Source of the DNA: Thermotoga caldifontis AZM44c09
GTDB lineage: Bacteria; Thermotogota; Thermotogae; Thermotogales; DSM-5069
Assembly: GCF_000828655.1 (NCBI RefSeq)
Contig: NZ_AP014509.1
Location: 248,001 to 312,000 of the forward strand
Length of the DNA: 64,000 nt
Reading direction: 5' to 3'
The notes beneath the pieces were generated by a model. That model was given only the letters and a program-made list of their open reading frames with translations, was not told where the DNA came from and did no database searches. The translations under genes and the position numbers were made by a program. Positions 18,878 to 21,822 of the stretch are shown in pieces (the first letter of the stretch is position 1; every line of letters begins with the position of its first letter).

Positions 18878-19105
18878 ATGCGGGTGAGGGTGTGCATGGG
18901 AAGTTCTTGTCATCTAAAGGGTTCGTACCGGATCGTCGAGAAACTCCTTCAACTGAAGGAGCAGGGGCTCAACCTGGACATTTCTGGTTCGCTGTGTTTT
19001 GGAAAGTGCTCCGAAGGGGTTTGCGTTGAGATAGACGGTCAGATCCACACGAACGTCACGGTGGAGAAGCTCGAACAGATTCTGGGAGTGAAAACATGCC
19101 ACTGA
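18878..19105 (+). CDS. Small thioredoxin-like [2Fe-2S] ferredoxin
   Basis: A 75-residue protein with the four-cysteine pattern of the NuoE/HydC C-terminal domain: CMGSSCHLKG near the start and SLCFGKCSEG in the middle. It carries one [2Fe-2S] cluster and probably moves electrons to or from the next gene product, a sensory hydrogenase. The same small protein is the first gene of the T. maritima hydrogenase operon. It overlaps the following gene by 10 nt. The closely similar C-terminal domain of HydA ([18 protein letters not shown]) suggests a shared origin. Confidence 0.85.
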   Translation: MRVRVCMGSSCHLKGSYRIVEKLLQLKEQGLNLDISGSLCFGKCSEGVCVEIDGQIHTNVTVEKLEQILGVKTCH

Positions 19106-20679
19106 TCGTTTCGAACGAGGCGGACTGTCTTTACTGCTACAAGTGTTTGAGAAACTGTCCCGTAAAGGCGATCTCGTTCTGTGCGGGTAAGACCAACGTG
19201 CAGGAAGAAGAGTGTATCCACTGTGCCACGTGCGTTTCAATCTGTCCCCAGAAAGCGAAGGGTTACACGAAGAACATCGAGGAATTCAGAAAGCTTTGCG
19301 GTAAACCTTTCCTCGCTTCGATCGCACCTTCTTTCTTCGCCCACTACGACGAGCCTTACAGAATCGTATCGGTGTTGAAGTCTCTGGGTGCAGAGATCGT
19401 TCAGGAAACCGCACTCGGTGCAGAGATCGTCTCGAAGGAATATTCGAGGATCTTCCAGGAACGTGGAACCGTCATCACCACGGCGTGTCCCGTGGTGGTC
19501 GAGCTCGCGGAGAAGCACTATCCTTCTGTGCTACCTCACCTTGCAAACGTGGATTCTCCGATGGTCGCGCACGCGAAGCTTCTGAAGAAACTTCACGGTG
19601 AATTGCCTGTGCTGTTCCTCGGTCCGTGCGTCGCGAAAAAGGCTGAAGGAACCGTTGACGTCGTCCTGACCTTCGAAGAGCTCGACGCCTTCATCGAGGA
19701 AGAGAGAATAGATCCATCCCGTTTCGACGAGCAGTTCCCGGAAGGTCCGTATCCATCCAGGGCCAGGATGTATCCGGTTTCGAGCGGTATCAGCTACACG
19801 GTTCAGACGCAGTTCGATGCGCACATCGTCGTTGAGGGTGTGGAGAATCTCATCGAACTCTTCAAGAACTTCACGCCTTCTGAACGGAAAATCTTCATCG
19901 AAGCTTCGGCGTGCCACGGGGGATGCATCAATGGGCCCGCGATCAGAAAAGATCTCAGCCTCGTAGAAAAACGGTCTCGCATCGTTGAACACGCGAGGAG
20001 GATGTCTCAGCTCCAGCAATCTTCCTTCCAGGTTCAGTTGAACCTCGAGAGGGCTTTTGCTGCGAAGAAGGAAGAACACGAAATCGATGAGGCGAGGATC
20101 GAAGAAGTTTTGATCGAGATGGGAAAAGCGGATGAAAACAAGAGGTTGAACTGTGGAGCGTGTGGATACAACAGTTGCAGAGAGAAAGCGATCGCGGTGA
20201 TCCTGGGCAAAGCAGAAAAAGAGATGTGCATCACCTACCTCGTCGACAAACTGAAGGCTGCGACGCACAAGGTTGTTGAAGAATCACCCAACGCGATCAT
20301 CATGGTGAAAGACGGCAGAATAATTTACCGCAACAAGACCGCCCTGAACCTTCTGAGGAGCAATCACGAAGATTTGATCCTGAGGCTGAGAGAATCCTTC
20401 TTCAAAGGCCAGCCCGTTCAGATAGATTCACGCGTTTACTACGTTAAGTTCTTCATCCTTCCGGAAGAAAAGGCGGATGTGTACCTCCTTGTGGACATCA
20501 CGAAAGAAAGAGAGCAGGAAGAGACACTCAGGCGGATCAAGAAAGAAACGCTCAGGAAAATGGAAGAGATGTTGGTCAAGCAGATGAGGGTGGTTCAGGA
20601 AGTGGCAGGACTGCTCGGTGAAACGGTCGCAGAGATAAAGGTCAGTTTCACCGAACTGAGGAAGACCCTGGAGGAATGA
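19096..20679 (+). CDS. hydS: Sensory [FeFe] hydrogenase with PAS domain (HydS, group C)
   Basis: A 527-residue protein. Two N-terminal [4Fe-4S] sites (CLYCYKCLRNCP, CIHCATCVSICP) are followed by an H-cluster domain with L1 TTACPVVVELAEKHYP, L2 LGPCVAKKAE and L3 EASACHGGCINGP, then a four-Cys cluster (CGACGYNSC), a PAS-like domain (about residues 390-475, PNAIIMVKDGRIIYRN) and a helical tail. L1 has Ala where catalytic enzymes have Cys (TSCCP), a known trait of group C sensory hydrogenases such as the T. maritima homologue. It should sense H2 or redox state and signal to the phosphatase that follows. Confidence 0.88.
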   Translation: MPLIVSNEADCLYCYKCLRNCPVKAISFCAGKTNVQEEECIHCATCVSICPQKAKGYTKNIEEFRKLCGKPFLASIAPSFFAHYDEPYRIVSVLKSLGAEIVQETALGAEIVSKEYSRIFQERGTVITTACPVVVELAEKHYPSVLPHLANVDSPMVAHAKLLKKLHGELPVLFLGPCVAKKAEGTVDVVLTFEELDAFIEEERIDPSRFDEQFPEGPYPSRARMYPVSSGISYTVQTQFDAHIVVEGVENLIELFKNFTPSERKIFIEASACHGGCINGPAIRKDLSLVEKRSRIVEHARRMSQLQQSSFQVQLNLERAFAAKKEEHEIDEARIEEVLIEMGKADENKRLNCGACGYNSCREKAIAVILGKAEKEMCITYLVDKLKAATHKVVEESPNAIIMVKDGRIIYRNKTALNLLRSNHEDLILRLRESFFKGQPVQIDSRVYYVKFFILPEEKADVYLLVDITKEREQEETLRRIKKETLRKMEEMLVKQMRVVQEVAGLLGETVAEIKVSFTELRKTLEE

Positions 20680-20682
20680 GGC

Positions 20683-21822
20683 ATGCTCACGTGCCAGATA
20701 GATCATGCGAAGAAGAACAAATCTGGTGAAGAAATCTGCGGAGATTCTATATGTGTGAAGAAGAGTTCCGAAAGGGTCGTCGCCGCCGTCTCGGACGGTC
20801 TTGGCAGTGGCATCAAAGCGAGCATACTCTCGACGCTCACGGCAAAGATGGCTGCCACGATGCTCTTCCACGGTGTTCCGCTCGACGAGGTGGTCACGTC
20901 GATACTGAAAACGTTGCCCATCTGCAAAGTCAGGGGTATAAGTTACGCGAACTTCTGCTGCATGGTGTACGATGCGAAGGCCAACAAATGCACCGTGGTG
21001 GAGTACGAATTCCCCGTGGTCCTCTATCTGAGAGATGGACAGCCGATCGAACTCGAAAAAGAGGAACGAACCATAGAGGGAAGAAGGATCCTGCTGAGCA
21101 GGATCACACCGAAAGAGAACGACCTGCTCTTCGTGATGACCGACGGAGTTTCTCAGGCAGGAATGGGCACCACCGAGTTCCCACTCGGTTTCGGCGTGAA
21201 GAACATCTTGAGAGAGATCCAGTCGCTTCTGAAATACAAACTTTTGCCCACCGATATCGTGAACCACCTCGTGAAACTCGCGCAACATCTGGACAGAGAA
21301 ACGAGGGGCGACGATGCTCTCGCAATGGTCGCATACTTCAGGCCCTTGCACGTGCTCAACATCTTCGTGGGGCCTCCAGAGGACAAGAGCAAGGACGAAT
21401 CGATGGTCAAACGCTTTCTGAGCATGCCTGGAAAGAAGGTCATCTGCGGTGGCACCACGGCACAGATCTTCGAGCGCGTTCTCGGCAAGAAGGTGCAGAT
21501 CGAGCTCGACACGATCTCTTTCGATTCTCCGCCTGTGGGAAAGCTCGAAGGTTTTGAGCTCGTCACCGAAGGCATCGTCACGCTCACCCACATATTCAGA
21601 TACCTCGAAGGCCAGCAGAACACGCTCAGCCTCGCTCCGCAGATGCTTTTGAATCTCTTGCTCGAAGCCGACGAGATCAACTTCGTCGTGGGTAGAGCCA
21701 TCAACCCGGCGCATCAGAATCCCCTGTTCAGCCACGATGTTTCGCTCAAGTTCAGGCTCGTTCATGACATCGCACGCATTCTGAGAGAGCGCGGAAAGAT
21801 CGTGAACGTGGAGTACTGCTGA
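20683..21822 (+). CDS. SpoIIE/PP2C-type protein phosphatase
   Basis: A 379-residue protein. Residues 1-220 form a PP2C/SpoIIE domain with metal-binding aspartates in [22 protein letters not shown] and [12 protein letters not shown]. The last 150 residues (from about [20 protein letters not shown]) form a second region that I do not recognise, perhaps a ligand or partner domain. It lies between the sensory hydrogenase and the catalytic hydrogenase genes, 3 bp after hydS. Dephosphorylation of a protein in response to the HydS state is the obvious hypothesis. No partner kinase or anti-sigma protein is encoded nearby. Confidence 0.85.

Follow-up and report, generated by a model that had tools for sequence, protein, structure and literature searches.

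In hfsABC(D) of Thermoanaerobacterium saccharolyticum and the hydS cluster of Ruminococcus albus, a serine phosphatase gene is known to come after the gene for a sensory [FeFe] hydrogenase that bears a PAS domain (PMC11837493; PMC6776011). The hfsA, hfsB, hfsC and hfsD genes encode, in that order, a hydrogenase-like protein, a PAS-hydrogenase, a serine phosphatase and a ferredoxin-linked hydrogenase (PMC11837493). The group C HydS of Thermotoga maritima (TmHydS) has an H-domain, an altered L1 residue and a PAS domain, and is assumed to control the hydrogenase encoded in the same operon (PMC10055695). A hydrogenase-like H2 sensor coupled to PAS is also found in the Ralstonia regulatory [NiFe] hydrogenase HoxBC/HoxJ (PMC8163306), and in RsbP and RsbU of Bacillus subtilis a helix relays the signal of a PAS or other sensor to the SpoIIE-type PPM phosphatase (PMC12143880; PMC3183031). 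The signal output of the putative sensory [FeFe] hydrogenases has been an open question since their first description. Here we describe the HydS–PP2C pair of Thermotoga caldifontis AZM44c09, found in a 64,000-nucleotide window (248001-312000 of the one-contig 2.01-Mb genome, labelled G000:C1; feature positions below are those of the window, all on the + strand). We consider it somewhat better than an even chance that HydS and PP2C together make up a phosphatase switch of two proteins that responds to redox/H2, similar to RsbP/RsbU but split in two.

The pair is part of a seven-gene unit, Fd-HydS-PP2C-HydC-HydB-HydA-Rex, in which genes are separated by gaps or overlaps of a few bases. The ferredoxin-like gene, HydS and the phosphatase, at 18878-21822, follow each other as in an hfs-type operon. 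HydS (527 amino acids; 19096..20679), recognized by its open reading frame, Pfam matches and cysteines, stops at 20679, and the 379-amino acid PP2C open reading frame (20683..21822) starts at 20683, with 3 bp between them. An earlier note on this DNA had placed the two genes 3 bp apart inside the catalytic hydrogenase operon, and HydC-HydB-HydA-Rex do come next. Its sequence statements all hold, but it overlooked one gene of the unit, an open reading frame for a 75-amino acid thioredoxin-like [2Fe-2S] ferredoxin (TM1420-like; 18878..19105) that overlaps the HydS start by 10 bp. The genomic setting differs from that of the hfs and R. albus clusters, where the next gene encodes the ferredoxin-linked hydrogenase HfsD/HydA2; AdhE is part of the R. 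albus cluster too. In the window, the next genes are those for the bifurcating HydCBA and for Rex. No difference of kind from the T. maritima HydS operon was found; the arrangement had been recognized as known from that species, and the window carries an orthologous, ordinary member. The pair is a normal member of a known, poorly understood system.

HydS starts with a 2x[4Fe-4S] ferredoxin domain identified by Pfam and its cysteines (residues 7-54; 19114..19257), followed by the H-domain (residues 71-281; 19306..19938; Fe_hyd_lg_C, E 1.1e-40) with L1 TTACP, L2 GPC and L3 ACHGGC, an extra [4Fe-4S] cluster domain, PF04060 (residues 351-379; 20146..20232; E 8.9e-10), a PAS domain (residues about 386-475; 20251..20520) and the C-terminal helix discussed below. 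The H-cluster cysteines C131, C178, C273 and C277 are all present, and the eight N-terminal cluster cysteines are kept, as are four in the PF04060 domain that precedes the PAS. In L1, Ala stands immediately before the ligand Cys131. The PAS_8 match (residues 392-429) is weak, at E 2.4e-4 and 21.3 bits, slightly below the Pfam cut-off of 21.8, and the region aligns with the PAS-only partner proteins and with PAS proteins above the cut-off, such as that of locus L047. The protein was correctly described as a group C HydS with an L1 Cys-to-Ala change and a PAS domain. The L1 change is claimed for the window only, because the pattern used to count the L1 residue over all HydS proteins missed half of the set. 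H2 binding by HydS that alters a signalling output is a putative function. In another Thermotogota genome (G021:C1:1435775-1437309) the HydS frame is broken in two, with the H-domain in one part and FeS-PAS-helix in the other, and the phosphatase is intact.

The catalytic domain of PP2C (residues 1-221; 20683..21345) matches SpoIIE PF07228 with 61.6 bits against a cut-off of 25. Residues D21, D38, D154 and D211 are invariant in 66/66 homologues from many phyla, and we take them to be the equivalents of the PPM/SpoIIE metal ligands. Inactivation by loss of metal ligands had been named as the finding that would speak against a phosphatase output; the ligands are all kept. An AlphaFold2 model built from 66 sequences has a mean pLDDT of 92.9, and the modelled catalytic domain aligns with SpoIIE at Z 23.0 (2.7 Å over 214 residues) and with 3pu9 at Z 23.7. 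From its kept catalytic residues, PP2C is predicted to be an intact, active phosphatase. The structural alignment with SpoIIE begins at residue 1 of the PP2C model. Residue 1 thus corresponds to the point where the SpoIIE catalytic domain starts, and PP2C has no N-terminal linker of its own. Helix alpha1 is the most conserved PP2C helix, with 3.48 bits compared with a mean of 2.49.

The two genes keep close company. Among 61 Thermotogota genomes, PP2C is present in 40 and HydS in 38, and HydS is always found with PP2C (38/38), which bears out the view that they are one functional unit. The two PP2C-positive genomes without HydS (G049 and G056) have a PAS-only gene in its place. A scan of GTDB genomes gave at least 580 PP2C homologues, of which 80 loci, spanning Thermotogota, Clostridia, Cyanobacteria, Planctomycetota, Spirochaetes and others, were retrieved and form the basis of the locus counts. 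The gene immediately 5′ of the phosphatase encodes either HydS or a PAS protein of ∼170 amino acids in all 80, although the gap reaches 559 bp in L054. HydS is encoded in about 50 loci and the PAS-only form in about 30; automatic sorting gave 51 and 29 but put at least L048 and L063, whose gene maps show the PAS-only form, in the wrong group. The small [2Fe-2S] protein has a homologue encoded upstream of the PAS/HydS gene in 67/80 loci. Comparison of the loci therefore leads to a constant core of [2Fe-2S] protein, PAS-helix and phosphatase, with the H-domain as an optional head.

The enzymes encoded nearby vary. A [NiFe] large subunit is found near 11 of the 80 phosphatases, all of them in PAS-only loci and 10 of them cyanobacterial; the cyanobacterial gene order is HoxEFUYH, Fd, PAS, PP2C, followed in several by HoxW and HypAB. 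AdhE is nearby in 9/80 loci and carbon monoxide dehydrogenase (CODH) in two. Because about 30/80 loci, the 11 [NiFe] loci included, have the PAS-only protein instead of HydS, the core module is not tied to H2 alone. Of the H2/redox signalling module proposed in the earlier note, the paired unit stands and the link to H2 needs this correction. The core is a putative redox PAS-phosphatase switch, to which an apparent H2-sensing head has been added in some lineages. The CODH-associated PAS-PP2C pairs, L104 and L116, come from Spirochaetes and Pirellulales genome bins, which suggests use in CO metabolism.

Two further observations concern the phosphatase family. A second, divergent type of Thermotogota phosphatase, about 38% identical to the window PP2C, is found in L033-L036. 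Next to it is either an additional HydA-like gene or one for a PAS-only protein, and genome G032 has both phosphatase types ∼2.5 kb apart. In six Clostridia, a TnpB/Cas12f-like protein of 464-540 amino acids is encoded directly 3′ of HydS-PP2C (L065:7423-8973, L072:9136-10692, L091:9182-10663, L105:9094-10716, L120:8031-9605 and L126:9183-10577). Its Pfam match is weak (E 4e-4, below cut-off). The RuvC residues have apparently been lost (GISRGI for GIDxG) and the zinc-finger cysteines are kept, so possibly this is a nuclease-dead, TldR-like regulator of fermentation genes. A literature search on this protein beside HydS-PP2C found no paper.

A shared sequence at the end of the sensor proteins offers a candidate connection to the phosphatase. 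HydS and the PAS-only proteins align with each other over their final 45-50 residues, with the consensus KQMxVAQEIAxLLGETTAETKxxLxxL. In the window, this signature helix comprises HydS residues 480-527 (20533..20676, MLVKQMRVVQEVAGLLGETVAEIK), as found by alignment, pattern and profile search, and the HydS version of the signature reads KQMRVVQEVAGLLGETVAEIKVSFTEL. A strict helix pattern is encoded directly upstream of the phosphatase in 72/80 loci. Of 16 whole genomes searched with the helix profile, 15 had a single match and one had two; the second copy there also ends a HydS that adjoins a second PP2C. These whole-genome matches make the helix specific to the sensor-phosphatase pair. A putative output helix specific to the HydS-phosphatase pair and common to the PAS-only proteins is new at the family level.

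In RsbU, RsbP and related PPM phosphatases, an N-terminal coiled-coil linker packs on alpha1 and transduces PAS or other signals (PMC12143880). By analogy, the HydS/PAS helix may be an RsbU/RsbP-type linker supplied in trans. The systems differ in that the window and all 80 loci encode the phosphatase apart from the protein with sensor and helix, and in that the phosphatase here has an extra C-terminal alpha/beta domain. The HydS–PP2C pair differs from HoxBC/HoxJ in output, which is a histidine kinase there and a PPM phosphatase here. Natural PAS-PP2C fusions were looked for and none was found in the 80 loci, the seemingly long PP2C open reading frames being artefacts of reading-frame selection.

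The C-terminal ∼158 residues of PP2C (residues 222-379; 21346..21819) are conserved in all 66 aligned homologues, with motifs GPP, CGGTT, PP, TEG and GxxxNPxHQNP. Scattered chance matches apart, no Pfam family was found for the domain in the 66 members, and a sequence search against the PDB gave only a weak match to phosphoheptose isomerase (E 0.22). Modelled separately, the region has an alpha/beta fold (pLDDT 90.8). The earlier note could not place this C terminus; there is still no Pfam family, but structure prediction sets it apart as a separate conserved alpha/beta domain. By DSSP on the model, the invariant or near-invariant GPP, CGGTT, TEG and GxxxNP sit after strand ends, and the GPP, CGGTT and TEG loops, at 4.1-4.3 bits, are the most conserved segments measured. 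Since ligand sites of alpha/beta folds look like conserved loops at strand ends, the invariant residues may line a ligand pocket. Every match to the domain in 36 genomes of one Clostridia-related class lies in a frame of 386-404 amino acids, the size of the fused phosphatase, and thus no free-standing copy was seen there. The conserved alpha/beta domain without a Pfam family is new at the family level.

The nearest folds are those of molybdopterin-oxidoreductase-type domains. Rows 1-22 of the VIA-align comparison are all of this type (NuoG, FwdB, FhcB and relatives), at Z 10.1-6.4, and the next, unrelated row is at 6.1. NuoG and FwdB come nearest (Z 10.1-9.2), with NuoG at 3.1 Å over 120 residues. 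Foldseek found nothing at E<=1e-3 with the domain, and hhalign against Escherichia coli NuoG was null. A kinship to the NuoG/FwdB domain is possible on the model, as a distant resemblance only.

The direction of the signal is suggested by genetics in T. saccharolyticum. When hfsA or hfsB is deleted, ethanol rises about 1.8-fold and the adhE transcript two- to threefold, whereas strains without hfsC and/or hfsD keep the wild-type ethanol yield, and the high-ethanol state needs wild-type hfsC and hfsD (PMC5707799). On the simplest reading, HydS would restrain the phosphatase and the active phosphatase would promote adhE, making HydS a negative regulator upstream of the phosphatase. In R. albus, the cluster of HydS, AdhE and a ferredoxin-only hydrogenase is 111-fold down in co-culture, which the authors attribute to the H2 level, naming the phosphatase (PMC6776011). 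Taken together, the two sets of data suggest that the phosphatase is restrained at low H2 and released at high H2. Accordingly, the earlier statement that the circuit had not been worked out holds for the target, but published genetics (PMC5707799) and transcriptomics (PMC6776011) supply a sign and an order of epistasis.

The proposed switch would work as follows. The H-cluster would read H2 or electron pressure, a task that would fall to the small [2Fe-2S] protein and PAS in the PAS-only versions, and the signal would run through PAS to the helix. The helix would pack on alpha1 of the phosphatase and gate PP2C as the coiled-coil linker of RsbU/RsbP does in cis. In the resting state HydS would inhibit the phosphatase, and high H2 or reduced carriers would relieve the inhibition. 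The active phosphatase would then dephosphorylate an unlinked partner-switch (STAS-type) protein, and H2/NADH-disposal genes would be induced. The C-terminal domain would add a second input, from a metabolite or a partner protein. Least certain among these steps are the target and what the C-terminal domain does.

The earlier note had seen no kinase, anti-sigma or STAS partner nearby, and none is present among the annotated neighbours of HydS-PP2C. The genome-wide check that it proposed gave two PF07228 phosphatases, two STAS proteins and seven HATPase_c_2 matches, which include an orphan RsbW-like protein (895.8 kb) and a CBS-RsbW fusion; such genes are present, with none linked to the operon. 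The two STAS proteins are encoded at G000:C1:127455-127769 and 1814410-1814724. No PF00069 (Ser/Thr Hanks) kinase was found in the genome, other kinase families not having been searched. Because PF00069 kinases are missing and two STAS proteins and HATPase_c_2/RsbW-like proteins are present, a partner-switch target is the most economical guess, and the phospho-target is most likely a partner-switch protein. The second SpoIIE-type phosphatase (G000:C1:1636518-1637078; L043:8504-10220) is encoded immediately 3′ of a CheY-like receiver protein and is likely a second input of the partner-switch network.

A cluster of CBS-HATPase (RsbW-like), DRTGG, PHP and kinase-like ATPase genes is located at G000:C1 ∼1516-1521 kb (L137:2144-6852). 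In Thermoanaerobacter, similar regulatory genes flank HydS of group D, but the cluster here is not linked to the hydrogenase operon. Perhaps this unlinked CBS-HATPase gene, which at 1.52 Mb has DRTGG, PHP and a histidine-kinase-like gene as neighbours, encodes the kinase partner in Thermotogota, but we regard this as improbable. CBS-HATPase is present in 39/40 PP2C-positive and 11/21 PP2C-negative Thermotogota genomes (raw counts, kinship ignored), and in L109 homologues of the cluster are found at a distance of a few kb from Fd-HydS-PP2C. However, L109, with its RsbW-DRTGG-PHP set, is the only one of the 80 loci with linked genes of the kinase/STAS kind, and in the 36 genomes from the class of G065, strong CBS-RsbW matches (12) and matches to the PP2C C-terminal domain (14) never coincide, at the strict cut-off of 1e-30. 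As a universal partner, CBS-RsbW is unsupported in the Clostridia sample, and the orphan RsbW is no obligate partner, being absent from the PP2C-positive G030 and G032.

A serious rival to the partner-switch target, although we judge it distinctly less probable than the switch itself, is that the phosphatase acts directly on the adjoining metabolic enzymes (hydrogenase, AdhE, CODH) as a post-translational control, with the C-terminal domain docking on the enzyme. The linkage of the module to HydABC, Hox, AdhE and CODH across phyla, while STAS/RsbW genes are unlinked, is what this would lead one to see, and the nearest folds of the C-terminal domain, the NuoG/FwdB alpha/beta domain, fit as well. 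To our knowledge, SpoIIE-type PPMs of known substrate act on STAS proteins, which weighs on the other side, as do the lack of a sequence-level tie between the domain and E. coli NuoG and the lack in this genome of a Ser/Thr Hanks kinase to phosphorylate such enzymes, with the limit on kinase families already given. Deletion of hfsB raises NADH-ADH and not NADH-ALDH activity, suggesting post-transcriptional control and favouring direct action (PMC5707799). The least probable explanation, to our mind, is that HydS is an electron-transfer or catalytic hydrogenase subunit and PP2C a housekeeping phosphatase merely co-transcribed with it. All HydS cluster ligands are present, so that H2 turnover is possible, and published work on the T. 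maritima and Thermoanaerobacter mathranii proteins leaves signalling unproven (PMC10055695; PMC8163306). Against it are the strict co-occurrence of HydS and PP2C, even at loci whose triad is not linked to HydABC (L036, L041), and the dedicated helix common to HydS and to PAS proteins that are not hydrogenases.

Gene order, intact residues, conservation and co-occurrence are direct observations behind the split RsbP/RsbU-like switch, and several points weigh against it. Binding and gating of the phosphatase by HydS, the redox input and the target are parts that we infer. The window helix deviates from the consensus (TVAEIK for TTAETK), and the PPM active site by itself would also lead one to expect a conserved alpha1. 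The operon has no STAS or RsbW gene linked to it, and in the Clostridia sample PP2C and CBS-RsbW, the best candidate for the kinase, are not found together. The hfs genetics come from Clostridia, and the assignment of HfsC to the PP2C family relies on gene order and its description in print rather than on sequence.

The remaining genes of the unit were assigned by family matches. They encode HydC (NuoE-like; 21827..22321) of the bifurcating hydrogenase, HydB (NuoF-like; 22293..24179) and HydA, a group A [FeFe] hydrogenase (24149..26164), followed by the last gene, for the NADH/NAD-sensing repressor Rex (26079..26759; NCBIfam, 306.5 bits). A generic-palindrome search of the window for a Rex-type operator found none.

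Tentatively, and with rather less than even confidence, a broader proposal can be made: that the phylum-crossing [2Fe-2S], PAS-helix and PP2C module, with its own ligand-binding C-terminal domain, is a general regulator of enzymes for H2, NADH and CO disposal ([FeFe], [NiFe], AdhE and CODH), that HydS is a PAS-helix protein with a grafted hydrogenase head, and that the helix is a trans linker gating the phosphatase. What is novel at the family level is the dedicated output helix, the conserved domain outside Pfam and a module that would reach past H2 sensing. The helix, the catalytically complete phosphatase and the pocket-like domain make the question of sensor output open to point mutation and in vitro tests. 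Cyanobacterial Hox operons contain the same parts, as do loci with AdhE; these enzymes are of biohydrogen and bioethanol interest, and deletion of a HydS homologue already raises ethanol yield.

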